This document shows, piece by piece, positions 14,791 through 56,948 of a stretch of DNA of 64,000 nt. Within the stretch, counting starts at the first letter, position 1. Every line of letters starts with the position of its first letter. Below the pieces are notes generated by a model. It saw nothing but the letters and a program-made list of their open reading frames with translations. It made no database searches and was not told the origin of the DNA. The stretch covers positions 16,455,384-16,519,383 of the forward strand of contig NC_135226.1 of NCBI RefSeq assembly GCF_052324685.1. Direction: 5' to 3'. The position numbers were made by a program, and so were the translations under genes. Origin of the DNA: Brachyhypopomus gauderio (Eukaryota; Chordata; Actinopteri; Gymnotiformes; Hypopomidae).

Positions 14791-14880
14791 GTAGATCTAA
14801 GGCACTCAAGTTCTTTTTGCAGAGACGCACTTTATAGCTCTTTCCTACAGTCATTTTATCACTGATTGTATATTGATACA

Positions 14881-15822
14881 ATGGAAAATGGAACCTACTT
14901 TTACTTCACTATGTTTGAAGATATGGGAAACTTAAGATATGTTTTCTTCAGTTTGAGTTTCATTGTGTACTGTTTAATCATATCATTCAATATAATCATA
15001 ATTTTTGCAATTGTTCTGGAAACTGTGCTTCATCAACCTATGTACATTTTGATTTCATGTTTAGCTGTAACTTCTCTTTATGGAACTGCTGGTTTGTTTC
15101 CGAGATTACTATCTGATTTATTGCTATATTCACACTCAATCTCTCGTTATGCATGTCTGGTGCAAGCTTTTGTCATTTACTCGTATGCATCATATGAATA
15201 CACAATCTTAACTTTAATGGCATATGATAGATTTGTTGCTATTAGTCAACCATTACAGTATCATAGCATAATCACTACCAGGACTCTTTCTTTTATGATT
15301 GCTCTGGCATGTATATTTCCACTGCTTTCTATTGGCAGTGGAATAATATTAAGTGCTAAACTGAAACTGTGCAGACATGAGTTAACAAAGTTGTATTGCA
15401 GTAATTGGGGAATTGTAAAACTCTCCTGTGAGAATACTGTCTTTAATAATTTTTTTGGTTTTGTAGTTCTCATAATTACAGTACTCATCCCCTTGAGCTT
15501 CATTTTGTTTTCTTATATTAAAATTCTCATAATTTGTCAGAGAAATTCATCAGAGTTCAGAAGAAAAGCTTATCATACCTGTTTACCTCACATGGTGACC
15601 TTTGTAAATTACTCAATTACTACTGTGTGTGAGGTGACTTTTAGCCGCTATGATGATGGAATTTTTCCTCAAGCAGTTGCTGTTATTTTGTCACTGGAGT
15701 TTTTGACAATACCTCCACTTTTAAACCCTCTAATTTACGGCTTAAAATTCCCAGATATTCGCAGAAAAATTAGATGTATTCTAAGAACACCCAAATTGTG
15801 CTTTAAATGTGAATTGTTTTAA
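14881..15822 (+). CDS. odorant receptor, subfamily 2 (313 aa, intact)
   Basis: Olfactory GPCR of a different subfamily. Seen: NGT glycosylation site at residues 3-5, LHQPMY in place of LHEPMY at 50-55, the TM3 end motif MAYDRFVAIS at 113-122 (Y to F, and the usual final C replaced by S), HTCLPHM at the start of TM6, and PPLLNPLIYGLKF in TM7. An open frame extends upstream only through a TTG; the first ATG with an OR-like start is 14881. The C-terminal tail (residues about 297-313) is Cys-rich and differs from that of the paralogue at 18654. Complete frame, presumed functional. Confidence 0.96.
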   Translation: MENGTYFYFTMFEDMGNLRYVFFSLSFIVYCLIISFNIIIIFAIVLETVLHQPMYILISCLAVTSLYGTAGLFPRLLSDLLLYSHSISRYACLVQAFVIYSYASYEYTILTLMAYDRFVAISQPLQYHSIITTRTLSFMIALACIFPLLSIGSGIILSAKLKLCRHELTKLYCSNWGIVKLSCENTVFNNFFGFVVLIITVLIPLSFILFSYIKILIICQRNSSEFRRKAYHTCLPHMVTFVNYSITTVCEVTFSRYDDGIFPQAVAVILSLEFLTIPPLLNPLIYGLKFPDIRRKIRCILRTPKLCFKCELF

Positions 15823-18565: not shown

Positions 18566-18653
18566 AAACATGTAAAACACTTGCATTGTTTTTGCAGAGG
18601 AGCACGTTGTGGCTTTTTCATAGTCATTTTGTCTCTGACTGTATATGGATACA

Positions 18654-19586
18654 ATGGAAAATGGAACCTACTTTTACTTCACTGTGTTTGAAGATTTGGG
18701 ACACTTGAGATATCTTTTCTTTTTTTTGAGCTTCACTGTGTACTGTTTAATCATATCATTCAATGTAATCATAATTTTTGTAATCGTTCTGGAAACTGCA
18801 CTTCATCAACCTATGTACATTTTGATTTCATGTTTAGCAGTTAATTCTCTTTATGGAACCGCTGCTTTGTTTCCAAGATTACTATCTGATTTATTGCTAT
18901 ATTCACATTCAATATCCCGGAATGCATGCCAGTTACAAGCATTTGTCATTTACACATATGCATCATATGAATACACAATCTTAACATTAATGGCATATGA
19001 CAGATTTGTTGCTATTAATAAACCATTACAGTATCATAGCATAATCACTCCCAGGGTTCTGGCTATTATGATTGCTCTGGCTTGTATACTTCCACTGCTT
19101 TCTATTGGCACTGGATTCATTTTGACAGCAAAACTAAAACTGTGTGGATACGAGTTAACAAAGTTGTATTGCAGTAACTGGGTAATTGTAAAACTGTCCT
19201 GTATCAATACAGCATTAAATAATATTTTTGGTTTTATGGTTCTCATAATTACGGTATTCATACCCTTGAGCTTCATTTTGTTTTCTTATATTAAAATTCT
19301 CATAATTTGTCAGAGAAACTCATCAGAATTCAGAAGAAAAGCTTATCACACCTGTTTACCTCACATGGTGACCTTTGTAAATTACTCAATTACCATTTTA
19401 TGTGAGATCATTTTTAGCCGCTATGAAGACGGTGTTCTTCCTCAAGCAGTGACTATTATTTTATCTATGGAGTTTTTGACAATACCTCCACTTTTAAACC
19501 CTCTAATTTATGGATTAAGATTCCCAGATATTCGCAGAAAAATACAACATTATTCCAAGAACATCCAAACAATCCCATCTAACTAA
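18654..19586 (+). CDS. odorant receptor, subfamily 2 (310 aa, intact)
   Basis: Olfactory GPCR paralogous to 14881, with most of TM1 to TM7 shared. Seen: NGT site at residue 3, LHQPMY, MAYDRFVAIN at 113-122, HTCLPHM and PPLLNPLIYGLRF. An upstream in-frame ATG (18645) adds three residues; I prefer 18654 because the paralogue begins with the same MENGTYFYFT. The tail differs from that of its partner. Loops around residues 135-165 and 185-195 carry much of the divergence, as expected for ligand-facing parts. Presumed functional; ligand unknown. Confidence 0.96.
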   Translation: MENGTYFYFTVFEDLGHLRYLFFFLSFTVYCLIISFNVIIIFVIVLETALHQPMYILISCLAVNSLYGTAALFPRLLSDLLLYSHSISRNACQLQAFVIYTYASYEYTILTLMAYDRFVAINKPLQYHSIITPRVLAIMIALACILPLLSIGTGFILTAKLKLCGYELTKLYCSNWVIVKLSCINTALNNIFGFMVLIITVFIPLSFILFSYIKILIICQRNSSEFRRKAYHTCLPHMVTFVNYSITILCEIIFSRYEDGVLPQAVTIILSMEFLTIPPLLNPLIYGLRFPDIRRKIQHYSKNIQTIPSN

Positions 19587-20737: not shown

Positions 20738-20798
20738 TATTCTGCCGCAGATGGGAGTTTTAGTTACTCAAAAGTGTTCTGAGGGCAGAACGAAAAAT

Positions 20799-20937
20799 GA
20801 TTGGTTCGGAGAGATAACCAATCACATTGTAGAGGAGGCGGGAGCGAAAAAGGCGGGCGCGCCCCCAAAAATCGAAAACCGACGGGACCAAAAAAAAAAA
20901 AACAAAGAACTGTTGCGCCTGAGAAATTTACCAAAAG
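20799..20937 (+). promoter_or_regulatory. TIR promoter and leader exon of the transposase gene
   Basis: Holds two facing CCAAT-type boxes (attggtt at about 20800, aaccaatca at about 20817) and a GC-rich block (ggcgggagcg, ggcgggcgcgcccc, about 20838-20870). A strong 5' splice donor follows, CCAAAAG|GTAAGAA, exon end at 20937. The nearest fitting acceptor is tttgtttag at about 23406, nine bases before the transposase ATG. The exon joined this way has no in-frame start leading into the transposase, so it is a non-coding leader. Confidence 0.55.
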
Positions 20938-21363
20938 GTAAGAATTTTTCATTTCGATTTGTTTTAATTGCTTATTTGGGCTTATATCGATGAGTTAGGT
21001 TGAATCAAGTAAGGTAACCTTATAAGGCTAACGAGGTAAACACTAGCTAGCTAATTTTTAACCTCGATTAACAGTAGTTTCACTAATGTTAGCTAGATAG
21101 CTAGCAATTTCAATTACGTCTGAACGCCAACATTATTTACAGACTAATAAAAACATAGTTAGCTAGCTTGATATAGTAGATGTAGTTAGGGAATTAGCAT
21201 GTAACACTTGCATTTTAGTGCTTGGCTAGCTTCCTAGCTAGATTTCCTATTTGTCATTGACAGTGAAAAATCCCAGTGTTGACTCGCCAATAGCTTTTCT
21301 AGCTATTTTAAATATGCGTTAGCAACGGGTTTTTTTTGCTAAACGAGCCAGATAAATGTAGCG

Positions 21364-22854
21364 TGTAGTGTAGTGCTGCTCTTAAGGCAGGAGAAATGTT
21401 CCGTATAGTGTAGTGCTGCTCTTAAGGCAGGAGAAATGTACTGTATAGTGTAGTGCTGCTCTTAAGGCAGGAGAAATGTTCCGTATAGTGTAGTGCTGCT
21501 CTTAAGGCAGGAGAAATGTACTGTATAGTGTAGTGCTGCTCTTGAGGCAGGAGAAATGTACCGTATAGTGTAGTGCTGCTCTTGAGGCAGGAGAAATGTA
21601 CCGTATAGTGTAGTGCTGCTCTTGAGGCAGGAGAAATGTACCGTATAGTGTAGTGCTGCTCTTGAGGCAGGAGAAATGTTCCGTATAGTGTAGTGCTGCT
21701 CTTAAGGCAGGAGAAATGTACCGTATAGTGTAGTGCTGCTCTTAAGGCGGGAGAAATGTACCGTATAGTGTAGTGCTGCTCTTAAAGCGGGAGAAATGTA
21801 CCGTATAGTGTAGTGCTGCTCTTAAAGCGGGAGAAATGTACCGTATAGTGTAGTGCTGCTCTTAAGGCGAGAGAAATTTTCCGTATAGTGTAGTGCTGCT
21901 CTTAAGGCAGGAGAAATGTACCGTATAGTGTAGTGCTGCTCTTAAGGCGAGAGAAATTTTCCGTATAGTGTAGTGCTGCTCTTAAGGCAGGAGAAATGTA
22001 CCGTATAGTGTAGTGCTGCTCTTAAGGCAGGAGAAATGTACCGTATAGTGTAGTGCTGCTCTTAAGGCAGGAGAAATGTACCGTATAGTGTAGCGCTGCT
22101 CTTAAGGCAGGAGAAATGTACCGTATAGTGTAGCGCTGCTCTTAAGGCACGAGAAATGTACCATATAGTGTAGTGTTGCTCTTAAGGCAGGAGAAATGTA
22201 CAGTATAGTGTAGTGCTGCTCTTGAGGCAGGAGAAATGTACTGTATAGTGTAGTGCTGCTCTTGAGGCGGGAGAAATGTACCGTATAGTGTAGTGCTGCT
22301 CTTAAGGCGGGAGAAATGTACCGTATAGTGTAGTGCTGCTCTTAAGGCGGGAGAAATGTTCCGTATAGTGTAGTGCTGCTCTTAAAGCGGGAGAAATGTA
22401 CCGTATAGTGTAGTGTTGCTCTTGAGGCAGGAGAAATGTACAGTATAGTGTAGTGCTGCTCTTAAGGCGGGAGAAATGTTCCGTATAGTGTAGTGCTGCT
22501 CTTAAAGTGGGAGAAATGTACCATATAGTGTAGTGTTGCTCTTAAGGCAGGAGAAATGTACAGTATAGTGTAGTGCTGCTCTTAAGGCAGGAGAAATGTA
22601 CTGTATAGTGTAGTGCTTCTCTTAAGGCAGGAGAAATGTATCGTATAGTGTAGTGCTGCTCTTAAGGCAGGAGAAATGTACCGTATAGTGTAGTGCTGCT
22701 CTTAAAGCAGGAGAAATGTACCGTATAGTGTAGTGCTGCTCTTAAGGCAGGAGAAATGTATCGTATAGTGTAGTGCTGCTCTTAAGGCAGGAGAAATGTA
22801 TCGTATAGTGTAGTGCTGCTCTTAAGGCAGGAGAAATGTACCGTATAGTGTAGT
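21364..22854 (+). repeat. 40-bp minisatellite in the left TIR
   Basis: About 37 tandem copies of a 40-bp unit with core tagtgctgctcttaaggcag followed by gagaaatgtaccgtatagtg. Units differ at a few recurrent positions (ttaagg/ttgagg/ttaaag, gta/gtt, ccg/ctg/cag). It lies where intron 1 of the transposase gene is expected. Confidence 0.95.
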
Positions 22855-23300
22855 TGTAACGTTTCTCGCGCTGCGTAGCGAGGAGACGGACACAAATGCT
22901 GAGAGGAGCGAGATTTATTAAAGGAAATACCATACTCATCGTCAGATAGCCAGGCAGGGTCGATAGCAGGAGGGCAGTCCGAGAAACACGCAAAGACAGG
23001 CATTACAAGACAGGGAGCACGGGAAACAGGAGAAACACAAAAACGGTCGGGTACAGAGAACAGCAATGGGACAGACACGATCACAAATCAATTCAAAATA
23101 CCGGACAAAGGACAAGGGAGACTCAGGGGCTTAAATACATGGAAACTAACTACGAGCAGGTGTAGACAATGATACAGGGGCGTGGCAATAAACAAGGGAA
23201 TTACGAGACAAACGAGTGGGGCGGGATGAACAGATACGGAACACAGACACGAGGGGTTCGGAGTGACAGCTAACGGAGGGGGACACGGTCATACGTGACA
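22855..23300 (-). mobile_element. solo LTR nested in the left TIR
   Basis: A 446-bp segment begins TGTAACG and ends ACGTGACA, with 5-bp target duplication gtagt (22850-22854, 23301-23305) created inside a minisatellite unit. The atttaagcccc-like TATA reads on the minus strand, so the LTR is in minus orientation. It is absent from the right TIR, so it entered after the transposon was assembled. Confidence 0.85.
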
Positions 23301-23414
23301 GTAGTGCTGCTCTTAAGGCAGAGGATGTATATTGTATAGTATAGAATATTTAGAATAGGTCTTTGAATGTTACTTTATTTTAATTTATTTTATTTTATTT
23401 GTTTAGGGAAAGAA

Positions 23415-25156
23415 ATGGAGAATATTTGGATTGAAGGTGTCAAACGAAAGCTGAAGAAGCTAACAGATCCTGAGATTATCCAAGACGTTGTTGTTATTTT
23501 TGAAGAGGAGAAGAACTTTATGCAGTCTTGTATCAAAAAATTGGAAGAGGAAACTCACAGCTACTTTAAATCTCCTGTATGTACTCGAAAGGGCTACTAC
23601 TATTATGCCTGTGAGATCCAATAAAGCAACAGGAAATAGCAAAGGGAAACCAACCAAAACCAGGGCTAACTCTTGCAGGGCATATGTCTCTTTCAGTATA
23701 ATCAAAGATGCTGGATTCACAGGTGCTGTGGTGCATAAAATGCTCAAACACAATGGACATGATGTTGGCATTCAAGAAGAAAGTGTAAAAAATCTGATTG
23801 ATCCAGAGCTACAGGCTTTCATTGATATGTGGCTTGAACAAGGGCTATCAGTCTCGGAAACACTTCTGAAAAGTGTGGAATGGGCAGAACGGCATGGACA
23901 TATGGACAAACACAATCGTCGATACTATGTTACACCAGATGATATAAGAACAATCAAAAAAAGCATCAATGCCCTAATTTTTCCTGACGTGAAAGACTGT
24001 GTCAGTGTTGACATTCTAGCCACATCAAAGCTAAAGGAAAACATTTGTTTTTACCAGCCTTTAAGTGATGAAAAACCCTTGATAATTGTAGTACAGACAC
24101 AGTGTACAGTGTATCACAACAGTGAGTATACCCCTCACATTTCTGCAGATATTTAAGTATATTTTCATGGGACAACAGACAAAATTACACTTTGACACAA
24201 TTAACAGTAGTGCAGCTTATATAACAGTGTAAATTTATTCTTCCCTCAAAATAACTCAATTTACAGCTATTAATGTCTAATACAGATACACTATCTAATG
24301 TCTATTTAATGTCTAATACAGATACACTGAATATTTATTTCATTTCATTTCTTTGTAGGTCAGTGATGATTGACAAGGACCTGAAGGAGCTCAATGCCAT
24401 AAGACAGATTTTTCCTTCAGCAAAGGTCCTCATTTGCTGGTTTCATGTACTGCAGGTAGATTTCAGACCAATTTTAGAAATTTATGTTACTGCAAATTAC
24501 TGCTGGTGACATAAAGGGTAAAACAGTAAATATTTTTTGTAATATTTCATAATATTCCATAAAAATCCATAAACATCACAACCATGATGTAAATCTTCTG
24601 ATTTCTTTTAACATGTAGGCTGTGCATAGGTGGTTGATAAAAAGGGATGGAGGGAACCTGTCAGTGGAGAAGAGAAATATGGTGATTCAAGCAATGGTGG
24701 CAATGAAGATGTGCTTATCAGTAAGACTCTTTGACACATATACATTTAATAGGGAAACTTTGGAAAAGAAGTCACCCGTGTAATAGCCCAGATCTTAATA
24801 TTTTGCTATTGTCACGCTACGGTCCCCAAACCCTTCCTTTGGGGCGTGTGTTAACGTTGTCTGCGTCTATTCGTCTGCGTCTGTGTACCTCCGTGGGTGC
24901 GGGTGGTTATTTAATTAAAATTAAATAATTTTAAATGTGTCATATTTTTCATTAATATTAGTTGAAAAATGCAAACACCAGAAATGGGTTGACATAAAAA
25001 CTCTAGTCTGTAAAACAAATTTATTTAAACATTTCAGAAACACACATCAAATACAAATATATTTTTCTTAAAAAACAGCAGTCTGCTGTTCCTGCTTTTG
25101 CAGTATTTGCTGTGTATACGTGTGCAACAACTTCCTGTGCATGTTAGTTATATACA

Positions 25157-25238
<82 letters not shown>

Positions 25239-27093
25239 GGTGGGGGAAGAGCATTCTTGCTCTCTTGATTACCTTTTCCTCAGCCTTTTAAGTGATGTCC
25301 TCCTCCCCAACTTTTACGACAAGAGGGGCCCCTGGTCGCCGTGGTGAAGTGGCCTTGCCTATCTCCACTACAACACTTTAGTCTCAATTATGTTAAGACA
25401 AACTTGCCTTAAGATTATCTACTCCTGTTTTCCCTGGCTTCAGTTTGTAAGATCTTGTAATGTTGTAAACATGCTCATTTAAAGTTTTTGTTTTTCAGGA
25501 AGAGGAGTTTAATAACACTTCTGCCACAAAGTGCAAAGAGCTGGATTCCAACCTTGGTAGTGCACATGTATCTACCTACTTGAAGACTCAGTGGATTTCT
25601 TGTGGGGAGCTGTGGTCCAGTTTTGGTAGATTATTCAATCACGAAAACAGCGAGACAAACAACAAGGCAGAGAGGTAGGATTATACCTGTTTCTTGTAAG
25701 AAGGAACATTCCTTCTCATCACTGAAGCACATTCACAATTCCATAGGCAAATGAATGTCTTTTATAAAATCAACATGCACACCCATACTAAAACACGAAA
25801 TGACAAAGATAACTATTTTTAGGAAGTGTATTGCCTGAGATTCATATTTTACATTACCATGATGTGCCAACCCAGTCTGGGCACTTTTAAAAAACTTACT
25901 CCAAAATCTAGATTCTCTATCTGAAACATGCTGGTATTAAAAAACTAAATTTCATTGGTCATAGATTACTTAAAACGTAACTAATAATAATATTTCAAAT
26001 GTATTTACTGTTCTGATGCTGTTGATTTACTGTGGTAATGTGGTTATTTCTTCCTTTCATAGATTCTTTCTCACAATGAAATATCAGTTCCTGAAGGGGA
26101 ACGCTAACAGGCGGATAGATCAGCTCCTTTGCTTGCTGTGTGGCAATGTTCAGAAATATTACTGGTATGTAAGATTATTGTAGCATTTACTATTGTCTTA
26201 AAAAACAAAGTGTCCATATTGTATTAGATGTTTCCTGCTACACTGAATGATTTCCATTTGACTGATTGCTTCTGATTTTTTGTTTTTTCTTAAGTTACAT
26301 GGATGACCTAGCAGACATTGGACGAATCAAGGGAGTCAATACCGATGACTTCTCTAATGCGGTCCAGTCTATGATTGAGAAGGGACTAGACTCAAAAGTT
26401 AACATAACTGAAACTGGAACCTGTTTTGTTCCACCTGATACGAGTGCACAGTCTCACAGTGTTGATTTGGTGATGGTCAAGTGTGACTGCAGAAGATCCA
26501 AAAGTGGTTCTATGTGCAAACATATTGTTTTCTCAAGAGTAGTGGCACAGCAGCAAGGAATAGATATTCAAGACCTCAGGACTGCTGTTGCTAGAAAAAT
26601 CATTGATAATCATTCATACATCTTAGATGATAATAACCTAACAGTCTTTCATAGCGATGGGAGTGTAGGAATTCTCAATCACAAAAGTCCACAATTTTGT
26701 ACATGTGTAGCTAATAGTCACAGTGAGAAATGTGTCTGTATTTTAGTTCACAACATCCTCTACCTGCCACCGACACCTTGCAAGTTGATCTTAAATGATG
26801 CAGATTGGCAGAAAAAAAACAAGCCAAATACAAAAGCTGAACTGCAGGCCATGTTGATGGACCTAATTGAATGGAGCCAATCAGACAAGTATACTGAGAA
26901 CAGGGAGCTGTACAAGATGGTGGAGAGGTCACACAAACTAGTTTTTTCAAACTTCAGCATTCAGTCAAGGAAAAGAAAAACAACTGCACTACATGCCTAT
27001 CGGCAACAAGTAAAAAAGGCAAGATGTACAGTCAGTATGAATTACGTTTGTAGACAGAAAAGCAGAGCGAAACAAAGGAAAAATAAAAATTAG
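23415..27093 (+). CDS. MULE-type transposase with SWIM zinc finger (multi-exon, defective copy)
   Basis: Cuts and joins the element via an RNase-H-fold DDE domain (family knowledge). Exons by eye: 23415-about 24120, about 24359-24455, 24619-24720, 25499-25674, 26063-26164, 26295-27093. Seen: a basic N-terminal region ending in CRAYVSFSI, like FAR1/CaRF-type DNA-binding modules; the second-Asp block MIDKDLKEL with AIRQIFP and CWFHVLQ; AVHRWL; the catalytic Glu block TNNKAERFFLTMK; and a SWIM finger CDC-x8-CKH near 26480-26525. The C-terminus is basic. Oddities: a one-base frameshift near 23600-23615, and the exon expected to hold the first catalytic Asp (DATY-type block) is absent between 24120 and 24358. 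This copy therefore looks inactive. Intron 1 would start in the TIR. Exon edges follow GT-AG sites. Confidence 0.75.
24809..24910 (+). mobile_element. possible LTR fragment in a transposase intron
   Basis: Starts tgtcacgctacggtcccc, like the TGTCACG start of nearby Gypsy LTRs, and is GC-richer than the intron around it. No right end or target duplication was found. Weak call. Confidence 0.25.
25157..25236. repeat. (TA)n microsatellite
   Basis: About 78 bases of uninterrupted at/ta dinucleotides in an intron of the transposase gene. Confidence 0.95.
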
Positions 27094-27200
27094 AGCTGCA
27101 ACACATTTGAAAGAATTTAAGTCCATAGTGGAACATAGTGATAGTGAACATAGTGTATTTAAATTTTCTGTACATGACAGCTGTACAGTGTGGCAGTCAA

Positions 27201-27458
27201 CCCTTCGGTTTTGTTGACCTCACGTTTTTTACTTTAGTGTTCCCGGTCTTCAGAGACCGGTCTGTTTTAACACACAAAAAAAAATTTCACCACCTTGCAA
27301 ACATAGGCATAACGTGTGTGTGTCTGTAGGTGTGTCTGTGTGTGTCTGTGTGTGTAGGTGTGTGTGTGTGTGAGTGAGTGTGTGTGTGCGTGTCTGTGTG
27401 TGTTTAGGTGTGTGTGTGTGTGTGTTTAGGTGTGTGTGTGTAGGTGTGTGAGTGAGTG

Positions 27459-27490
<32 letters not shown>

Positions 27491-28260
27491 CACGCGCGCA
27501 TGTGAATTCATGCACATGAGTGGCATGTCACACTCAGATCAGAGTGTGCCTTGCAAACATAGGCATAACATGTGTGTGTGTCTGTGTCTGTAGGTGTGTG
27601 TGTATGTGTGTCTGTGTGTGTAGGTGTGTGTGTGTGTGTGTGTGAATTCATGCACATGAGTGGCATGTCACACTCAGATCAGAGGGGCCTTGCAAACATA
27701 GGCATAACGTGTGTGTGTGTGTGTCTGTGTGTGTAGGTGTGTGTGTATATGTGTGTGTCTGTGTGTGTGTGTAGGTGTGTGTGTGTGAGCGAGTGAGTGA
27801 GCGAGTGAGTGTCTGTGTGTATAGGTGTGTGTGTGTGTCTGTGTGTGTTTAGGTGTGTGTGTGTAGGTGTGTGTGTGTGAGAGAGCGAGTGTGTGTGTGT
27901 GTGTGTGTAGGTGTGTGTCTGTGGGGGTGTGTGTGTGTGTGTGTCTGTGTGTGTAGGTGTGTGTGTAGGTGTGTGTAGGTGTGAGTGTGTATGGGGATGT
28001 TTTCTGTCTCATAGATGAATATATTCTGAATACCCATTCACTTCCTGTGACGGTCACGCTTGACCGGCAACAACACAGATGTAAAACATTGGTTTAAAAC
28101 ACTCAAAATTCAATGAAAAAGATGATCATCACTTTTATATGTTCCAGTGCATAGTGTGGAGGATGGCATAAGGCCTTGTAGCAATCAGATGTAAAACACA
28201 ATATTTATGAGTGGTTTAAGTTGTAAATCGGTCAGATTTGACCCGAACACGACAGGAGGG
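27201..28260. mobile_element. piggyBac-like non-autonomous element filled with GT arrays (copy 1)
   Basis: Ends CCCTTCGGTTTTG and ACGACAGGAGGG match those of the copy at 54846-56652. The flanking tetranucleotides (tcaa, taaa) are imperfect relative to the TTAA that piggyBac duplicates, so this copy is older or its flanks have changed. Inside are an ggtcttcagagaccgg palindrome near the left end, long tgtg/taggtgtg arrays broken by a gcaaacataggcataac spacer, and a unique right part containing cgtgacggtcacgcttgacc-like sequence. It lies between the 3' ends of the two transposon genes. Confidence 0.7.
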
Positions 28261-28457
28261 TAAAGACTAAATACAAATAAAATGGGAAGAAAACCTTGCT
28301 CCTCTTGAGTCTTTATTTAAACACTTCTTTCCACTTTAACATACATGTTTTTTCCATGTTCCTATCAACAATGTACTCACAAATTATGTAAATATGCAAG
28401 GACATAAAGTAATAAACTATTTTTGCAAATACAAAATAAAGAGGTAAAAAAAAAAAC

Positions 28458-29771
28458 CTACTCATCTGTGTAATCAATTGATTTCAGTGCTCTCATTTTT
28501 TCTTTAAGACATGCATCAATTAATGCAAAAGTGCCTTTTATAACAGCAGGGCCAAGACCATGAGTTGACAGATCAAATGTTTCCCAATTGGCCTCTAAAG
28601 CATTCTTTACAGCATCCAACGTCTTCCTGCAATTGAAATGAAAAACAGTGTTTAACTTTAATTAATATTTAAACTGATCATTGATTCTTTCAGTTAATGC
28701 CACACATAGTATTTCTTTATTACCTACAGTCCTCTGTTTTGGCCATGGCAGCATGGACATTGCCACTTTCCATCAAGGCTTGACCCACTTTTTTCTGTGG
28801 GATGAATTTTGTTGCCAGGTACATTATGTCACCAGCTAGGTCACTGCATTCATCTAAAATGTAATAATTGCACTTAACACAAATATTTAAAATACATAAC
28901 AGGTAAATAAACCATGTTGGGATGTGTAGACATAAAATTATCAAAAAGTAGGTATTGTAAAACAACCTAGGGGCTATTAATGTCCCCAAAATAGGCTGTT
29001 TTGGTATAACTGAACATCCCATAATCAGTCTTGCATGCATACCATGAAAAATGTCTTTGTTAAAGTATAAATTCTTAATATAAATAAGAATGATTACTTT
29101 GTAAAGTTCTTACACATCTCTATTATTGTTTCAGAAACTTATGTTCCTGGTTTACTACATCCACTCCAGATGTATGCCTGTAATTATACCTTAATATTAA
29201 TTTAATACCAGTTAGAGTTGAGAATTAAAATGACAATTTAATTATACAAAACCACAAAAAACAAGGCTATTGGTACCATTATTCCCATTACAGTTACTGC
29301 TACTTCCACTCCACTGATACCTTCACAAAGTTTGGAGCACTGGGAAGTTAACTTTGTGCGCTTTGTGGGCTTAACCCCCAACTCTGCCAACTTCTCTTCA
29401 ATGTTTCTTTTCTGTCCCTTGGCCTTCCTTAGATAAGCCACTACAGTGTTTGCAGAGTAGCTCTCTGGTAGGGAGCATCTCCTCTGCAGTTCATCTGAAG
29501 TGACCAGGTACCTAAAATACCAACACATCTATAATTATCAGTATTTCATTATATTGATAGTACAAACTATATGGGGTTCCAGGAATGCTAAGACTTCAAC
29601 CTTGTAAATAAATGCACTTACTTTTGTCTTTTCAAAATATAATGGGACTGAAAAGTCCCAAGTAGCCATCTGATCATAATTTATTTAAATGCATTTCATA
29701 TAACATTTTCCTTTACCTCTTTGCCTGGTGAAAGTCTGAAACCTTTAGAGCACTTTCCACCAGGAATCCCC
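28458..29771 (-). other. AP-2-like C-terminal domain (part of the minus-strand gene)
   Basis: Reading the four 3' exons: DELQRRCSLPES, then YLRKAKGQKRNIEEKL, then SKLCEDECSDLAGDIMYL, then CRKTLDAV, then FDLSTHGLGPAVIKG and a terminal helix. Vertebrate AP-2 has, in the same order, EVQRRLSPPE, VLRRAKSKNGGR-x2-REKL, SLVEGEAVHLARDFGYV, a C-K-E-F helix and FNLISHGFGSPAVCAA. The junction of exons 29321 and 28853 makes CEDECS exactly in phase (GAA G|AT GAA). This is the helix-span-helix region that dimerises AP-2. Similarity is by eye from memory of the family. Confidence 0.72.
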
Positions 29772-32700
29772 CTGTATGGGTGAAAAAAGAGTTGGGAAAC
29801 TACTAACGTGAAGTACACGACATGCTTTTATTGTGATAAAAATGAATTGCTGTCTATACATAACAAGACTCATTCTAAAATTACCAGCATGAATTTATTT
29901 ATGCAAGACTTAAAGCTCTGGGGTGGGTTTCCCGAAACGTTTGTAGCGCTAAGTACTTCGTAACCTCATATGAAACGTACGAGGTTAAGAAGTACTTAGC
30001 GCTATGAACGTTTCGGGAAACCCACCCATGATCAGTACAATTATCACTTCTCAAATGTTTTAATAACTGAAGTGTGGTAGCATCAAAAATTGCAATAATT
30101 GGAGAAAGGTGATCTTTGATCTGTTTTAAATAAGACTGCTTAGCATGAAAAGAACATAAAAACCATTGGTCCCTTTGGTTGGGATAAGGAAATTGGAAGA
30201 CTGATATTCATTTAAGGGATGTGGTAGGTCTGCTTTTGGCAAGTTAATATATTTGTCAAAATGAACATTTAAACTTTTACTTGTCTGATCTTGGTTGTGT
30301 TCTTTCCTGTCTCCTCCCTGAACTCTTGGGATGTCTCTGTTACTTTCTCCAGAGCTGTCTCCTCCCTGAATTCCTGGGTTGTCTCTCTTACTTTCTCCAG
30401 AGCTGTCTCCTCCCTGAATTCCTGGGTTGTCTCTCTTACTTTCTCCAGAGCTGTCTCCTCCCTGAATTCCTGGGTTGTCTCTCTTACTTTCTCCAGAGCT
30501 GTCTCCTCCCTGAATTCCTGGGTTGTCTCTCTTACTTTCTCCAGAGCTGTCTCCTCCCTGAATTCTGAATCCTGTGAGGTCTCGGGTATTGCTGTCTCCA
30601 TTATTCTGCTCTAATGCATGCCATGCTTCAAAAATGTAATATTTAAACATAAAATAAAAAAAAAGAAACAGAGCATGGTACATTCCAAAAGTATGAACCT
30701 ATATTCTCCATTTACAAATCATTAAAATATCAGTCACGTTTTCAATATAACTTACTATATTATATAAACATAAATGTGTACCAAAGTGGATACTATGTTC
30801 ATCTGAGAAAGATAAACTAATCCAATGCTGCAGAATTCACAATTTCTAAAATCCAATACCTATGCAAAACACACACTTGTCCTCTTGATTCTTAGGCAGA
30901 CATTTTTCATGGAAACTTGCTGAACAAGAAGAACATTTTTCCTGCAAAATTGATTGGCATGCCATGTGGTTAAATAAAGTTTATCCAATTCCAGTATTGA
31001 AGGGCTATACTTTCATATTTGTTTTAGTTTTTACTTGGTCAAAATGCATTATTTTAATGCCTAATTTCAATTGAATCTGGTTTATTTCAGCAAACAATAA
31101 ACAAACACACACAAAATTGGCTTACAGGTTTTGATATGGATAATTTTCAGTTTAAGTACAAAATGCTTCTAATTTTAGATTAAAATAACATTTTATTTTT
31201 ATTTATTATTTTATTTGCATCACTTGCCTTGTTCTTCTTAGATACCCTCTTGTGACAGATGCCACAAATTCCTGACCTGTCTAAAAGCACATAAACATGT
31301 GCTGCCTTATTACTCTTTTAACAGGGACCAATCAGTGGATTCACATTTCATTTTTTGATCTTTAATTAAGTTTAGAAAAACTCACGTTTTCACTTTGACA
31401 TTAAGTGTAAATTGATGGGCAAATTTGCAATTATAAACATTCAATAATTAGCACAATAGTGTGCAAAAAGTCACATACTTGGTGACAGAATATTATCTAA
31501 ATCCACTGTACCTGTGCATTTGTACTTACCAAGTGAACTGAGAAGAAGCAAGCTGAGTCTTTCTCTCTCTTCTTGTATAGGTGGACATGTTATATATCCG
31601 TCTTCCCCTCCCAGAAAGGTCTCAGCAAACTAAAGTGGTTCCAAAAAGATGATTAACTCAATCTGTCACACAATGTCACAAAATGACTTGATAGAATATG
31701 TACTGTATTAACAGAAGTTCTAGCAAAACCTGACTGTCAAAAGTGATAATGTTTCAAAGTTTCATGAAAATAAATACATCTTAAAAAATCCTTTACCACA
31801 GCTGTGAAAACACCACAAGAAACACCGTCTTTCTGAAGAGTGTGATTCCTTTTTGACCTTTTCCATGGTCCTGGATATCCTTTTGCTGCAGCAAATGTGC
31901 TAGAATGATAGCAACAATTTACATATATAAAGAACAAATGGGAAAAAGGTTTATATAGAAATACAGAAAATATAGAAATGCCTTCTCCCTACCTCCAGTG
32001 TTGTGCTATTTTATGATAGTGTTCATCCTGTTCTCCAAGTGAATTAAGGTAAGTTATCCTCCGATCCACAATGCTGCAGTGCTAGATGAAAGAAATGAGA
32101 CATTTTTACAATAAAGAATTTGCTTTAAGCTGGCTGCCAATTTACTTGAGTGACTTACAAAAAAAGTCCAATGATTCCCGCCCTTCAAATAGGGACCAAC
32201 AACCTCCCTTGCATTTTCAAAGATGTTTCTCTTAATAGAAGAGGAAAAAATACAAAAGCTTATTTTGAGCAAAACAATAACCATAGTGACCACCAGTAGT
32301 AGTCTAGCAAAACATATCTGATGCAATATTCTACCTATAACACCTAAGGAACGTACTCGCCAATTAAATGTTTGTCAAGTAATTCTTACCTTGACAAAAT
32401 AATGGCTTCTGGCTCTTGCTCCCCCATCCAGAATATGAGTCAGGGTATGAGCATTAATTGCCACTACTCCTGGTCGCCTCTACAAAGGCAATAATGGGTG
32501 TACACTGAATGTCTTAAGTACTATAACCAAGTCCAAATAAAACAAATGTGTCTTGGTATAGAATGTAGGCAATCCACATAATGGAGAACTTTTGTATGTT
32601 CATTACAATACCAAAGAGTCTCTGAAATATACATTTAAGCAAAAATATAATATGATGATACTTGGAAGACATTTGTACACAATACAAGTTTTCTTAACTT

Positions 32701-33669
32701 TGCTAAATACAGACCAAAAAGGCCCAGTACTGTCACATATAAAATATACTACCAAATACTGAGAATTATTTAACATAAGCTAGGAATTCTTTAAGTACTC
32801 ATAATATCCATTATGTGCTAAGAAAATCATACTGTGGAAATCACAAGGAGCATTAAAAATTTGATAGTGATTTCCACAGCATGGTTTTCACACTGTGAAA
32901 TTGTCATATTACGCATTCCTACATGCGTGTTTGTTTGTATTATCTTTTGCCTTTTGAATAAAGAGATGTAAATAGCAGTCTATTACCATACTAAATAGAT
33001 GAAACAAGGCATCCATGATCTGAGGAGTCATAACCCAAAGAGTAAAAAAAGAAAACAAAAATTATTAGAGAGAATGGCCAGTAAACTTGACAGATAAGAA
33101 TGTTTTGAGAGTTCAGGTCAGGTTTTCAATAAATATAGATGTTTGAGATGATGAACCACACTAAGTATGATGGTAACACCATAGATCATACTCAAGCCTA
33201 TACTGTGATGGGTGGCATGATTTTGATCTGAAACTGCTGGCTAAGCTAATGTTAAAGATACAAAGTAATTTACATACACTCAAGGTAATTATTTACATAC
33301 ACGTATAGAAACAAAAGTAGAATTATATAAACATCAGATACCTCATCAGATACTTCATTGTTGCTCTCTATAAGGGATTGAAAACTTCCCACATAAAGTG
33401 GATAGGGCCCAACACTTCCAATTTTGGTCTCCCTTCCTCCAGACATCACAGTTTGTAAGACTGCATCGGTAAAGGTTTAATGTTAAAACATTTTGCAAAG
33501 ATTGTTGTATAAAATTTACAAGCCTATACATTTCTCTCATATGCCAAATAGCTCTCTTAAAATGCTACCACACTGGAAGACATCCCTTGTATTGTTTATA
33601 CCTAATTAACATGGTATGTTATTAAAAGGCACATGCACTTCATGCTGCAAGTTCATGCTTACCATTCAT
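28458..33669 (-). CDS. Ulp1-like protease / PHD-like finger / AP-2-like domain protein of the MULE
   Basis: About 15 exons by eye. The ATG is at complement(33667-33669), seven bases before the donor at 33663, and the next exon begins LQTVMSGG. Protease part: PQIMDALFHLF (about 33000); catalytic His in GGNHWTFF (about 32165-32190); Asp in SIVDRRITYLNSLGE (about 32030-32075); Gln and Cys in LQKDGVSCGVF (about 31803-31836). This is the full C48 set. Next, CGICHKR (about 31250) and CSSCSASFHEKC then CVFC (about 30875-30950) form a PHD-like C4HC3 pattern. Then come acidic/basic 16-residue repeats (30269-30601). The last four exons (29717-29771, 29321-29511, 28724-28853, 28458-28626) splice in phase to a domain like the AP-2 C-terminus. 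The likely role is de-conjugation plus DNA or chromatin binding for the transposon; that role is inference. No break was found in the exons I traced. Confidence 0.72.
29921..30027. repeat. 107-bp near-perfect fold-back element
   Basis: Starts gggtgggtttcccgaaacgt and ends with its complement acgtttcgggaaacccaccc. The arms are about 48 nt with only a few mismatches around tagcgctaagtactt. It resembles a miniature inverted-repeat element and lies in an intron of the minus-strand gene. No target duplication was resolved. Confidence 0.8.
30345..30572 (-). repeat. 48-bp coding minisatellite
   Basis: Nearly five copies of a 48-bp unit (16 codons; unit peptide EFREETALEKVRETTQ in one frame) inside an exon of the minus-strand transposon gene. 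Two frames are open across it (the other reads IQGGDSSGESKRDNPG). The flanking splice sites and the frame used by the mature protein are not certain. Confidence 0.85.
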
Positions 33670-33892
33670 TTTTCCCTGCAGACAGTTGACGATTCCTTGA
33701 AAATATAAAGAAATAAAAAGACGGATTAGTATTAAAAAAAAACAGTTTTCAATATAATTCTAAATCACATTGACTAAAGATCATTTTAATCAACCTCCAT
33801 AAACAAATTATGACACAAACAATATAGTATCTGTGAAAACAAATATCTGTTAACACAATAGTTGGTCTCAGCTTAGCCACTATAAGCACCTC

Positions 33893-35440
33893 TGCCTTAA
33901 GAGCAGCACTACACTATACGGTACATTTCTCCTGCCTTAAGAGCAGCACTACACTATACGGTACATTTCTCCTGCCTTAAGAGCAGCACTACACTATACG
34001 ATACATTTCTCCTGCCTTAAGAGAAGCACTACACTATACAGTACATTTCTCCTGCCTTAAGAGCAGCACTACACTATACTGTACATTTCTCCTGCCTTAA
34101 GAGCAACACTACACTATATGGTACATTTCTCCCACTTTAAGAGCAGCACTACACTATACGGAACATTTCTCCCGCCTTAGGAGCAGCACTACACTATACT
34201 GTACATTTCTCCTGCCTCAAGAGCAACACTACACTATACGGAACATTTCTCCCGCCTTAAGAGCAGCACTACACTATACGGAACATTTCTCCCGCCTTAA
34301 GAGCAGCACTACACTATACGGTACATTTCTCCCGCCTTAAGAGCAGCACTACACTATACGGTACATTTCTCCCGCCTCAAGAGCAGCACTACACTATACA
34401 GTACATTTCTCCTGCCTCAAGAGCAGCACTACACTATACTGTACATTTCTCCTGCCTTAAGAGCAACACTACACTATACGATACATTTCTCCTGCCTTAA
34501 GAGCAGCGCTACACTATACGGTACATTTCTCCTGCCTTAAGAGCAGCACTACACTATACGGTACATTTCTCCTGCTTTAAGAGCAGCACTACACTATACG
34601 GTACATTTCTCCTGCCTTAAGAGCAGCACTACACTATACGATACATTTCTCCTGTCTTAAGAGAAGCACTACACTATACAGTACATTTCTCCTGCCTTAA
34701 GAGCAGCACTACACTATACTGTACATTTCTCCTGCCTTAAGAGCAACACTACACTATATGGTACATTTCTCCCACTTTAAGAGCAGCACTACACTATACG
34801 GAACATTTCTCCCGCCTTAAGAGCAGCACTACACTATACTGTACATTTCTCCTGCCTCAAGAGCAGCACTACACTATACTGTACATTTCTCCTGCCTTAA
34901 GAGCAACACTACACTATATGGTACATTTCTCGTGCCTTAAGAGCAGCGCTACACTATACGGTACATTTCTCCTGCCTTAAGAGCAGCGCTACACTATACG
35001 GTACATTTCTCCTGCCTTAAGAGCAGCACTACACTATACGGTACATTTCTCCTGCCTTAAGAGCAGCACTACACTATACGGTACATTTCTCCTGCCTTAA
35101 GAGCAGCACTACACTATACGGAAAATTTCTCTCGCCTTAAGAGCAGCACTACACTATACGGTACATTTCTCCTGCCTTAAGAGCAGCACTACACTATACG
35201 GAAAATTTCTCTCGCCTTAAGAGCAGCACTACACTATACGGTACATTTCTCCTGCCTCAAGAGCAGCACTACACTATACGGTACATTTCTCCTGCCTCAA
35301 GAGCAGCACTACACTATACGGTACATTTCTCCTGCCTCAAGAGCAGCACTACACTATACAGTACATTTCTCCTGCCTTAAGAGCAGCACTACACTATACG
35401 GAACATTTCTCCTGCCTTAAGAGCAGCACTACACTACACG
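33893..35440 (-). repeat. 40-bp minisatellite in the right TIR
   Basis: About 38 units, the mirror image of the array at 21364-22854. The order of unit variants largely matches the left arm, with small local gains and losses. It occupies the presumed first intron of the minus-strand gene. Confidence 0.95.
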
Positions 35441-35864
35441 CTACATTTATCTGGCTCGTTTAGCAAAAAAAACCCGTTGCTAACGCATATTTAAAATAGC
35501 TAGAAAAGCTATTGGCGAGTCAACACTGGGATTTTTCACTGTCAATGACAAATAGGAAATCTAGCTAGGAAGCTAGCCAAGCACTAAAATGCAAGTGTTA
35601 CATGCTAATTCCCTAACTACATCTACTATATCAAGCTAGCTAACTATGTTTTTATTAGTCTGTAAATAATGTTGGCGTTCAGACGTAATTGAAATTGCTA
35701 GCTATCTAGCTAACATTAGTGAAACTACTGTTAATCGAGGTTAAAAATTAGCTAGCTAGTGTTTACCTCGTTAGCCTTATAAGGTTACCTTACTTGATTC
35801 AACCTAACTCATCGATATAAGCCCAAATAAGCAATTAAAACAAATCGAAATGAAAAATTCTTAC

Positions 35865-36003
35865 CTTTTGGTAAATTTCTCAGGCGCAACAGTTCTTTGT
35901 TTTTTTTTTTTGGTCCCGTCGGTTTTCGATTTTTGGGGGCGCGCCCGCCTTTTTCGCTCCCGCCTCCTCTACAATGTGATTGGTTATCTCTCCGAACCAA
36001 TCA
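35865..36003 (-). promoter_or_regulatory. TIR promoter and leader exon of the Ulp1-PHD-AP2-like gene
   Basis: Same block as 20799-20937 on the opposite strand: CCAAT boxes, ggcggg-rich core, and donor CCAAAAG|GTAAGAA with exon edge at 35865. The downstream acceptor tttcaag at about 33696-33702 leads into a 33-bp exon that holds the first ATG. The two transposon genes thus appear to share one promoter and leader design. Confidence 0.5.
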
Positions 36004-36265
36004 TTTTTCGTTCTGCCCTCAGAACACTTTTGAGTAACTAAAACTCCCATCTGCTATTCTGCCTCCTATTCTACATCCCAAGCCCCACTGAGCATTTCTA
36101 CTGTATCAGTTACGCATCAACAGAAATTGGACATTTCTAAAATGGTGTGTGAAACTCAAGTAAAACACAAACATAAGGCAACTTGAATGAACCAGTGATA
36201 AACCAGTGCATTACACATTTTTACTTGGACGTGATTGCATTGCATAATTCTCTGAGTGTGATATT

Positions 36266-38135: not shown

Positions 38136-38240
38136 AAATGGCTATTATAGAATTGGCAGTAACTATTTTATGAGTTACAGTAGAATATAATGTTTTTACT
38201 TCTTTACTTAAAAAAAGCTTTGTAAAACAACTCATGAATT

Positions 38241-39179
38241 ATGGAAAATTCTTCTGAAAGCATCATGTTTGTGCTCCAAGGACTTAATGACACAAGGACA
38301 AACAAACAAATCTACTTTGGATTTGGTCTCTTGATTTACCTTTTGACTCTCTTTGCAAATTTTACATTGGTTATTACAATTGCTTTAGATAAAATGCTAC
38401 ATGAGCCAATGTATCTGTTTGTATGCAACTTGTTTGTTAATGGAATATATGGTGTCTCTGCTGTCTATCCAAAGATCCTTGCTGATTTGATATTAGATTC
38501 TCCTGTTATCTCATATACTGGATGCATAACACAAATATTCATAATTTACTGTTATGCTTTTTGTGAATTCACATGTCTTACAGTGATGGCCTATGACAGG
38601 TATGTAGCAATTTGTAAACCCTTGGAGTATCATACCATCATGACAAACCAGATGGTGGGAAAATTGCTAATTTTTACCTGGATATACACATTGATAGAGA
38701 CACTTATTGGATTTGGATTAACAGTCCGACTTACCTTATGTGGTAAGAACATTGAAAAGCCTTACTGTTCTAACTGGGAGGTTGTGAAGCTATCATGCAC
38801 AGATGTGACAGTTAACAACCTGTATGGGTACTTTCTAATCCTTTCTCATTTATCCCAAGCTATGTTCGTCATTGTGTCATATATTCAAATTATCAGAGCT
38901 TCTTTGCGGTCCAAGACAGAACGGATTAAATTCATGCAGACATGTCTTCCCCACTTAATAACCCTCTTGAACTTTACCCTTTCTATGCTCTTTGATTCTC
39001 TGTATTCTCGCTATGGTAAAAGTAACGGCCCACAAGCTGTTCGTGATATCTGGAGTATGGAGTATCTCGTTGTTCCACCTCTCCTAAACCCCTTAATATA
39101 TGGACTGAAAGTGACCCAGATACGACACAGCTTTCTAAAATTGTGTGGCTACAAACTTAAAGCACTGAGACAGAGGTGA
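38241..39179 (+). CDS. odorant receptor, subfamily 3 (312 aa, intact)
   Basis: Olfactory GPCR with NSS glycosylation site at residues 3-5, LHEPMY at 53-58, TM3 cysteine, MAYDRYVAIC at 116-125, loop-2 cysteines within LCGKN and YCSNWEVVKLSC, KFMQTCLPHL before TM6 and PPLLNPLIYGLKV in TM7. It differs from the 42845 receptor at about 22 residues of 312, most in TM1, TM4 and TM5; the last 60 residues are identical. It sits in the left unit of a segmental duplication. Confidence 0.97.
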   Translation: MENSSESIMFVLQGLNDTRTNKQIYFGFGLLIYLLTLFANFTLVITIALDKMLHEPMYLFVCNLFVNGIYGVSAVYPKILADLILDSPVISYTGCITQIFIIYCYAFCEFTCLTVMAYDRYVAICKPLEYHTIMTNQMVGKLLIFTWIYTLIETLIGFGLTVRLTLCGKNIEKPYCSNWEVVKLSCTDVTVNNLYGYFLILSHLSQAMFVIVSYIQIIRASLRSKTERIKFMQTCLPHLITLLNFTLSMLFDSLYSRYGKSNGPQAVRDIWSMEYLVVPPLLNPLIYGLKVTQIRHSFLKLCGYKLKALRQR

Positions 39180-42725: not shown

Positions 42726-42844
42726 TGTCACAGTGACTATTATAGAATTGGCAGTGCCTTTTTTATGGGGTTTTTTATGAGTCCAGTATAATGTTTTTAC
42801 TTCTTTATTAAAACAAAAAGCTTTGTAAAAAAAACTTATCAATG

Positions 42845-43783
42845 ATGGAAAATTATTCTGGAAACATCATGTTTGTGCTCCAAGGACTTAATGACACAAG
42901 GACCAACAAACAAATTTACTTTGGATTTGGTCTCTTGATTTACCTTTTCACTCTCTTTGCAAATTCTACATTGGTTATTACAATTGCTTTAGATAAAATG
43001 CTACATGAGCCAATGTATCTGTTTGTATGCAACTTGTTTGTTAATGGAATATATGGTGTCTCTGCTGTCTATCCAAAGATCCTTGCTGATTTGATAGTAG
43101 ATTCTCCTGTTATCTCATATACTGGATGCATAACACAAATATTCATAATTTACTCTTATGCGTTTTGTGAATTCACATGTCTTACAGTGATGGCCTATGA
43201 CAGGTATGTAGCAATTTGTAAACCCTTGGAGTATCATACCATCATGACAAACCAGATGGTGGGAAAATTGCTCATTTGTACCTGGACCTACGCGTTCATA
43301 GAGACACTTGTTGGGATTGGATTAACAATTCGACTTACCTTATGTGGTAAGAACATTGAAAAGCCTTACTGTTCTAACTGGGAGGTTGTGAAGCTATCAT
43401 GCACAGATGTGACAGTTAACAACCTGTATGGGTACTACTTAATAATTTCTCATTTTTCCCAAGCTATGTTTGTCATTGTGTCATATATTCAAATCATCAG
43501 AGCTGCTTTGCGGTCCAAGACAGAGCGGATTAAATTCATGCAGACATGTCTTCCCCACTTAATAACACTCATGAACTTTGCCCTTTCCATGCTCTTTGAT
43601 GCTCTGTATTCTCGCTATGGTAAAAGTAACGGCCCACAAGCTGTTCGTGATATCTGGAGTATGGAGTATCTCGTTGTTCCACCTCTCCTAAACCCCTTAA
43701 TATATGGACTGAAAGTGACTCAGATACGACACAGCTTTCTAAAATTGTGTGGCTACAAACTTAAAGCACTGAGACAGAGGTGA
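42845..43783 (+). CDS. odorant receptor, subfamily 3 (312 aa, intact)
   Basis: Olfactory GPCR, duplicate of 38241. An ATG directly before (42842) adds one Met; I chose 42845 to match the paralogues. Seen: NYS glycosylation site at residue 3, LHEPMY, MAYDRYVAIC at 116-125, KFMQTCLPHL and PPLLNPLIYGLKV. Substitutions relative to 38241 cluster in TM4 (about residues 143-165) and early TM5 (YYLIISHF), parts that line the odorant pocket in this family. The 3' third is almost unchanged at DNA level. Confidence 0.97.
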   Translation: MENYSGNIMFVLQGLNDTRTNKQIYFGFGLLIYLFTLFANSTLVITIALDKMLHEPMYLFVCNLFVNGIYGVSAVYPKILADLIVDSPVISYTGCITQIFIIYSYAFCEFTCLTVMAYDRYVAICKPLEYHTIMTNQMVGKLLICTWTYAFIETLVGIGLTIRLTLCGKNIEKPYCSNWEVVKLSCTDVTVNNLYGYYLIISHFSQAMFVIVSYIQIIRAALRSKTERIKFMQTCLPHLITLMNFALSMLFDALYSRYGKSNGPQAVRDIWSMEYLVVPPLLNPLIYGLKVTQIRHSFLKLCGYKLKALRQR

Positions 43784-56652: not shown

Positions 56653-56807
56653 TTAAATAAACAGAAAAGGATAAGTGTAGGGGGGTGAGACATTTTGAGG
56701 TGGGGGATCATAGGGATCACAGCTATTTTAGAAAATAATATCATAAACTTGCATGGAAGCTTTTCCGTATGGTGTCTCTCCAAGGATTTCATACTCTATA
56801 TGTTATT

Positions 56808-56870: not shown

Positions 56871-56948
56871 TTACTGTTTGCGAACTTTGAGTTGGCTGTG
56901 GCTTTTTTACGGGATGCTGTCATATGCTAAAAAAACCGACTTTGAATA

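Follow-up and report, generated by a model that had tools for sequence, protein, structure and literature searches.

AP-2 factors regulate development in animals and form a small gene family of their own. The locus analysed here raises the question of whether an AP-2 domain can belong to a mobile element and, if so, from where it came and what it might do there. A preliminary description of the window (the whole analysed stretch of 64,000 nucleotides from Brachyhypopomus gauderio) had placed an AP-2-like helix-span-helix domain inside a DNA transposon and had left two alternatives, capture of a host transcription factor domain or a transposon origin of the AP-2 fold.

AP-2 exons of the window

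The five AP-2 motifs named in the preliminary description (LQRRCSLPE, LRKAK, EKL, LCEDECSDLAGD and FDLSTHGLGPAV) were all present in the order it gave, and all read on the minus strand. The four in-phase exons it had proposed were likewise borne out, as they join in frame with GT-AG borders at all three introns (phases 2, 1 and 2), and independent gene models, including the NCBI model P0016, unite the same four exons:

29717 to 29771, minus strand: AP-2 exon 1 (GFLVESALKVSDFHQAKR), by splice reading
29321 to 29511, minus strand: AP-2 exon 2 (basic part, QRR..PE, LRKAK), by Pfam, phmmer and the genome TF_AP-2 search
28724 to 28853, minus strand: AP-2 exon 3 (DECSDLAGD...), by splice reading and intron comparison
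28458 to 28626, minus strand: AP-2 exon 4 including the stop (FDLSTHGLGPAV), by splice reading and intron comparison

The four-exon product matched Pfam TF_AP-2 (PF03299) at an E-value of 7e-17 and 62.4 bits (gathering cut-off 23.4) and human TFAP2A from the PDB at 1.5e-6 in phmmer. A search of the PDB with a 10-row profile retrieved TFAP2A (3.1e-12) and TFAP2B (3.3e-12), and HHalign of eight transposon rows against five TFAP2 rows gave a probability of 98.6 and an E-value of 8.7e-16 over 159 columns at 28% identity. This alignment runs from column 16 to 175 of 181 in the transposon profile and from 11 to 199 of 225 in the TFAP2 profile, covering the basic region and the helix-span-helix end to end; moreover, TF_AP-2 was matched at E <= 0.01 in 16 of 16 aligned relatives. 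By sequence comparison we thus confirmed that the four predicted exons encode a true AP-2 domain, and the helix-span-helix assignment of the preliminary description held under profile methods. A chance likeness to AP-2 was ruled out by the Pfam, PDB-profile and HHalign scores. In viral contigs searched for relatives of the domain, 18 stretches matched the pattern and none was confirmed.

The enclosing transposon

Inverted-repeat detection initially returned arms of about 2 kb (20863-22854 and 33948-35939) enclosing the AP-2 gene. The complete element extends over positions 20747-36054 (15,308 bp), carries the outer ends GCAGATGGGAGTTTT on both sides and is flanked by a perfect 9-bp duplication, TATTCTGCC. 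The terminal inverted repeats (TIRs), their tandem arrays and the target-site duplication (TSD) are as follows:

20738 to 20746, no strand: left TSD TATTCTGCC, 9 of 9 bases identical to the right one, abutting identical 15-bp TIR ends
20747 to 22854, plus strand: left TIR, 2108 bp, starting GCAGATGGGAGTTTTAG, 95.3% identical to the right TIR over 2108 columns
21354 to 22854, plus strand: left 40-bp tandem array, 37.5 units (TRF)
33892 to 35448, minus strand: right 40-bp tandem array, 38.9 units (TRF)
33948 to 36054, minus strand: right TIR, by inverted-repeat detection and alignment to the left TIR
36055 to 36063, no strand: right TSD TATTCTGCC, matching the left one at 9 of 9 bases

A TSD of 9-11 bp and long TIRs are hallmarks of Mutator-like elements (MULEs). 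With its long TIRs, its 9-bp TSD and the transposase described below, the window element is a MULE DNA transposon with two convergent genes. The TIRs, the TSD and the other copies described below bear out the earlier placement of the AP-2 exons inside a DNA transposon.

The surroundings and the interior of the element hold several further features. Nine olfactory-receptor-like open frames were recognised by eye on the plus strand (35-1006, 2617-3624, 6806-7750, 14866-15822, 18639-19586, 38238-39179, 42812-43783, 56946-57887 and 62861-63808); the element is inserted into this cluster, and the window reads by eye as fish sequence with transposons between such frames. A G+C-rich stretch of about 450 bp (22855-23300), which by eye is probably a small nested insert, interrupts the left arm and has no counterpart in the right arm. 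Furthermore, a GT-rich block of microsatellite sequence at 27293-28264, together with the non-repeat sequence flanking it (CACTTCCTGTGACGGTCACGCTTGACCGG...), recurs at 55618-56657 with 80.6% identity over 1058 columns. Since the block is also found in three other copies of the element (C45, C1:35.54M and C1:54.39M, see below), it was present before those copies spread.

The Ulp1-zinc finger-AP-2 gene

The preliminary description recognised the AP-2 domain but overlooked that this domain ends a longer protein composed of Ulp1, zinc finger and AP-2. The AP-2 exons form the 3' end of a longer minus-strand gene that starts near 33669 and comprises 14-15 exons encoding about 540 amino acids. A join of 14 exons gave 529 amino acids without a stop, with GT-AG splice sites throughout apart from one GC-AG exception, and a 15th exon of 33 nt was read by eye and is also in P0016. 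Upstream of the AP-2 exons, the following were assigned:

33663 to 33669, minus strand: exon 1 (ATGAATG), in agreement with P0009 and P0016
33342 to 33460, minus strand: exon 2, N-terminus, by splice reading
32987 to 33019, minus strand: exon 3, 33 nt (IMDALFHLFSM), by eye with AG/GT flanks, in P0016 and P0017, outside the 14-exon join
32390 to 32479, minus strand: Ulp1 domain exon, by splice reading
32159 to 32230, minus strand: Ulp1 exon with the catalytic His (GNHWTFF), by Peptidase_C48 match
31993 to 32081, minus strand: Ulp1 exon with Asn replacing the usual Asp (YLNSLGE), by splice reading and alignment
31797 to 31899, minus strand: Ulp1 exon with the catalytic Gln and Cys (LQKDGVSCGVF), by splice reading
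31530 to 31629, minus strand: exon past the Ulp1 core, by splice reading
31228 to 31280, minus strand: first half of the zinc finger (CGIC), followed by the GC-AG intron, by splice reading
30860 to 30941, minus strand: second half of the zinc finger (CSSC...HEKC...CVFC), by splice reading
30281 to 30610, minus strand: acidic 16-aa repeats (48-bp period), by TRF, with the least certain splice sites

The protein thus consists, in order, of an N-terminus, a Ulp1/C48-like protease (GNHWTFF, LQKDGVSCGVF), a C4HC3-type zinc finger (CGIC..CSSC..HEKC..CVFC), acidic 16-aa repeats and the AP-2 domain. P0016, an NCBI model from B. gauderio named 'transcription factor AP-2-epsilon-like', shares identical blocks of 42, 151 and 180 residues with the window product and is without the zinc finger and repeat exons; the block of 180 corresponds to the four AP-2 exons with the same splicing. 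The window product matched Pfam Peptidase_C48 weakly, at 16.8 bits with a cut-off of 20.7. Among five relatives, P0015 (22.4 bits), P0029 (26), P0039 (31.7) and P0037 (41.5) scored above the cut-off and P0017 (16.9) below it. Of the 16 aligned relatives, several of them fragments, only 5 had a Peptidase_C48 match at E <= 0.01. Of the Ulp1 catalytic residues, His, Gln and Cys are kept; most rows have Asn in place of the usual Asp, which is present in P0037.

The MULE transposase gene

The second gene, on the plus strand and convergent with the Ulp1-AP-2 gene, encodes the transposase and is broken in the window copy:

23416 to 24153, plus strand: 5' exon, with a frameshift near 23620 and about 356 bp, including the first catalytic Asp, missing after 24100
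24360 to 24455, plus strand: exon SVMIDKDLKELNAIRQIFPSAKVLICWFHVLQ (MULE core), by Pfam MULE
24619 to 24720, plus strand: exon AVHRWL..., with a counterpart in family B
25499 to 25675, plus strand: exon EEEFNNTSATK..., by family B comparison
26064 to 26168, plus strand: exon FFLTMKYQFLKG..., by family B comparison
26295 to 27093, plus strand: 3' exon, SWIM-like CDCRRSKSGSMCKH and stop, by ORF list and family B comparison

Compared with the other copies, the window transposase is broken at 24100/24105, and three of three other copies read have the 5' exon as a single uninterrupted frame of 324 codons, some upstream codons included. The pieces in the window matched Pfam MULE (PF10551) at 6.2e-5 and 23.8 bits, under the curated cut-off of 27.6, because the frame is shifted and the missing segment of about 356 bp includes the first catalytic Asp; the complete 5' exon of other family A copies joined to the next exon gave 5.2e-17 for MULE and 1.4e-17 for ZSWIM1-3_RNaseH-like. 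No Pfam match to SWIM was obtained for the transposase of either family, the CxC..CxH pattern being recognised by eye, and the 3' exon had no Pfam match of its own at E <= 1.

Other copies in the genome

A TF_AP-2 search of the 796.5-Mb genome returned 25 exon matches, 19 of them in five TFAP2 genes (on C6, C7 and C8, with two on C9) and six in transposon exons (two on C1 and one each on C5, C8, C16, which is the window, and C44). Searching the genome with the outermost 118 bp of the TIR returned 16 matches, part of which were read in detail besides the window: two ends each at C45 and C1:35.54M, three at C1:54.39M and one at C1:50.40M. Three of these places hold family A elements with both ends:

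C45:106482-118839: both ends, TSD 9 of 9
C1:35542264-35553280: both ends, TSD 8 of 9
C1:54389006 to 54404998 or 54413988: TSD 9 of 9 with either right end

The last of them combines one left end with two right ends that lie about 9 kb from each other and are both flanked by the same 9 bp, which would fit a duplication, after insertion, of the end or of some part of the element. Among seven elements with both ends, the 9-bp TSD is exact in four (window, C45, C1:54.39M and C44) and matches at 8 of 9 bases in C1:35.54M and, by eye, C8; C5 has no exact one. Two further places had fewer than two ends and are outside this tally: at C1:39.69M lies a degraded AP-2-bearing copy with segment identities of 90-99% and no TIR end in the stretches fetched, and at C1:50.40M a derivative in which one TIR, the transposase start and an AP-2 exon (97.5% identical) are joined.

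One and the same deletion, spanning window positions 28932-33230, has taken most of the Ulp1-AP-2 gene from the copies at C45, C1:35.54M and C1:54.39M; P0009 is consistent with being the annotated product of such a shortened copy. In the 5' part of the transposase (window 23300-24100), the three copies show 99.5-99.6% identity with the window. To the left of the deletion, including the microsatellite, identity is 94-96%, and to its right 99.8% in two copies and 96-97% in the third. As the deletion copies lie between TSDs at three different sites, elements without most of the gene have moved. The Ulp1-AP-2 gene is therefore not needed in cis; at most it acts in trans, or else it is dispensable. 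The window copy kept this gene and lost the transposase, whereas the deletion copies lost most of the gene and have an open first transposase exon; such complementary lesions are compatible with a trans-acting pair, which they would allow without proving it.

Family B and selection on the AP-2 domain

A second family, B, is represented by the elements at C5, C8 and C44, with TIR ends GCACGTTGGAGTTTTA. Overall, identity of their AP-2 domain to that of the window is about 47%, with 55-56% for the basic exon and about 42% for the final one. The C44 element measures 5.2 kb, retains AP-2 and is bounded by a perfect TSD (GAGCTAAGA), and that on C8 spans 1574546-1594165. At C5, the transposase gene, whose product matches MULE at 2.3e-13, converges with the Ulp1-AP-2 gene in the same layout as in the window element.

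Between the window and C5, the proportion of synonymous differences over 157 AP-2 codons (pS) was 0.86, i.e. saturated, against a nonsynonymous proportion (pN) of 0.37, which places the AP-2 domain under purifying selection. The window and C1:39.69M differ by 2 synonymous and 4 nonsynonymous changes in 105 codons, too few for a selection test, and C5 and C8 by 0 synonymous and 2 nonsynonymous changes in 63 codons of one exon and by none of either kind in 51 codons of another.

Relatives in other species

Three protein searches gave 14, 29 and 2,895 matches (best 120 listed, 8,000 candidates scored; the third query held a TFAP2A fragment). The matches listed include 50 transposon-type proteins (P0001-P0050) from 23 species by printed name, ranging from the mormyrid Brienomyrus to Fundulus, all of which we take to be teleosts; barnacle and vertebrate AP-2 factors rank next among the matches listed. 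A precomputed TF_AP-2 match is present in 39 of these 50 proteins (21 species), the others being Ulp1 pieces or short, and long open-frame Ulp1-AP-2 proteins are listed from characins, loaches, carps and Fundulus. Outside this genome too, the listed teleost proteins presumably lie in MULEs.

Two of these proteins, P0037 and P0042 (Misgurnus and Carassius), form a further diverged Ulp1-AP-2 lineage whose models are without the zinc finger. In the barnacle Amphibalanus amphitrite, P0051 and P0052 show two AP-2 starts in tandem, perhaps from a duplication or from fusion of gene models. In the tree, the AP-2 part of the window groups weakly (85/71) with Brienomyrus, a mormyrid, and not with characiforms; this grouping and the 78-84% identity across deep teleost splits may reflect horizontal transfer.

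Possible role of the Ulp1-AP-2 protein

The TIR arrays repeat a palindrome, CTGC-N7-GCAG, which takes the form CTGCTCTTAAGGCAG in family A and CTGCTCCTAAAGCAG in family B. The window element holds 43 exact copies of CTGCN7GCAG, 22 in its first 3 kb and 21 in its last 3 kb, where 0.175 are expected; C45 has 56 (5 outside the outer 3 kb), C8 34 (4 outside), C5 9 and C44 8. As the palindromes sit in tandem arrays, their number is no independent evidence. Compared as wholes, the repeat units of families A and B gave local scores of 20 and 21, near the shuffled level (mean 16.5, 95% level 21, maximum 32), so that just the 15-bp palindromic core, seen by eye, is notable.

AP-2 proteins dimerise through the helix-span-helix, and the palindromes suit a dimeric AP-2 domain. 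In other transposons, accessory proteins bind repeated subterminal sites. We propose that dimers of the AP-2 part would bind the palindromes of the TIR arrays, or the promoter of the element, and that the bound AP-2 part would anchor the Ulp1 protease at the TIRs, where it might deSUMOylate or process the transposase or host repressors, much as accessory proteins like maize TnpA or MURB act; binding and protease recruitment, taken jointly, seem to us about as likely to be right as wrong. Since copies without the gene have moved, the factor would act at most in trans. TFAP2 binds GCCN3-4GGC as a dimer, a site from which the TIR palindrome differs, and the transposase could equally bind the TIR palindromes.

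Two other accounts of the domain were weighed. It may have been taken up for a role other than binding the element ends, for example expression of the element in AP-2-positive tissues through pairing with the host factor or imitation of it, or integration at AP-2-bound open chromatin. Dimerisation through the helix-span-helix and the kept C-terminal FDLxTHGLGPAV would agree with this, but the TIR palindromes are the simpler target, and we hold such a role to be conceivable and rather doubtful. We consider it unlikely that the AP-2 exons are a passenger, i.e. a Pack-MULE-style gene fragment without a role for the element. Plant Pack-MULEs do carry host exons with introns, and the movement of copies without most of the gene fits a passenger as well; against it, the Ulp1-AP-2 layout is common to both families, whose AP-2 domains are about 47% identical, synonymous change is near saturation with pN at 0.37, and the long open-frame proteins recur in characins, loaches, carps and Fundulus.

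Origin of the AP-2 exons

In this genome, all five TFAP2 genes have the introns VLR-R|AK (phase 2) and LVE-G|E (phase 1), and the four with the donor printed have AT-K|Q (phase 2); the AP-2 introns of the element are K-R|Y (phase 2), LCE-D|E (phase 1) and C-R|KTL (phase 2). The phase-1 introns LVE-G|E and LCE-D|E fall in the same codon within a locally ungapped stretch, and AT-K|Q and C-R|KTL, both of phase 2, lie a few residues apart in a gapped stretch of the HHalign alignment. VLRR|AK is missing from the element, and K-R|Y of the element is missing from TFAP2. The comparison of intron phases suggested in the preliminary description therefore yielded one intron shared in site and phase, one of the same phase nearby and two unshared. 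With random intron placement, one exact match and another of the same phase within four codons arose in 0.15% of draws.

In a tree of 25 rows, 17 transposon rows were separated from 8 TFAP2 rows, barnacle included, with support of 100/100 and in 100% of 200 bootstrap trees. The branch between them amounts to about 6 changes per site and by itself gives neither the time nor the direction of a capture. The phylogeny thus places the transposon rows outside the TFAP2 clade, i.e. not as TFAP2 orthologues, at the end of a very long branch.

The shared intron site and phase speaks for uptake of a host AP-2 gene in the form of DNA. Most likely, the AP-2 exons come from a TFAP2-type host gene captured with its introns, either long ago or with fast change since. 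Between the alternatives left by the preliminary description, host capture is accordingly favoured by the shared intron and by the listed transposon-type proteins being all teleost, and a transposon origin of the AP-2 fold is not. In that second reading, the AP-2 factor family would descend from a DNA-binding accessory protein of an ancient Mutator-like transposon, with the teleost Ulp1-AP-2 elements as surviving relatives. Several transcription factor families do derive from transposases, and the very long branch parting the transposon clade from TFAP2 could be read in this way; we nevertheless judge this descent very improbable, as the 50 transposon-type proteins among the matches listed are all teleost and the barnacle AP-2 groups with vertebrate TFAP2, away from the elements. 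That the gene is an ordinary host AP-2 paralogue adjoining or interrupted by a transposon, as its NCBI name transcription factor AP-2-epsilon-like might imply, is hardly credible and was ruled out by its position between two TIRs and by the other copies with the same TIRs in which parts of it recur, the five true TFAP2 genes being found elsewhere in the genome. On balance, we consider it probable that the window holds a teleost MULE with an accessory Ulp1-zinc finger-AP-2 protein whose AP-2 domain was captured from a host.

Significance and comparison with known systems

A fusion of Ulp1, zinc finger and AP-2 as the second gene of a MULE would be new, and a transposon is an unexpected place for an AP-2 domain; among the titles listed from one open-access library, we found no prior description of an AP-2 domain in a transposon. 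A transposon AP-2 domain under purifying selection would exemplify exchange from host regulator to mobile element, the less studied direction, and the element offers a comparison for the binding specificity, dimerisation and evolution of AP-2 at a divergence far beyond that of the TFAP2 genes. The Ulp1-AP-2 fusion would moreover predict a targeted SUMO-pathway action at transposon ends. As a warning for annotation, some fish genes named AP-2-like or uncharacterized are transposon genes.

With the TFAP2 factors (PF03299) the element shares a homologous DNA-binding and dimerisation domain, in which QRRxSxPE, LRxAK, EKL, LxExE, LAxD and HGxG are kept, and one intron at the same site and in the same phase. 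Unlike them, its protein is without an N-terminal activation region, is fused to Ulp1 and a zinc finger and is encoded inside a transposon, and its domain, at 28% identity (HHalign), is without most of the stretch DRSPLGNSRP..LEPG. Plant AP2/ERF, in spite of its similar name, is an unrelated fold. The transposase core resembles ZSWIM1/3 in its match to ZSWIM1-3_RNaseH-like (1.4e-17); ZSWIM1/3 are host proteins and not mobile. The plant KI-MULE/Kaonashi elements are MULEs that carry a Ulp1/C48 gene, comparable to the Ulp1/C48-like part here, and are not known to carry a TFAP2-type domain. Finally, the element agrees with the MuDR/MULE superfamily in its MULE domain, long TIRs, 9-bp TSD and convergent second gene, and by eye its transposase has a putative SWIM-like finger as well; it differs from that superfamily in that its second gene encodes Ulp1, zinc finger and AP-2 and in that each TIR is built of about 38 tandem 40-bp units.
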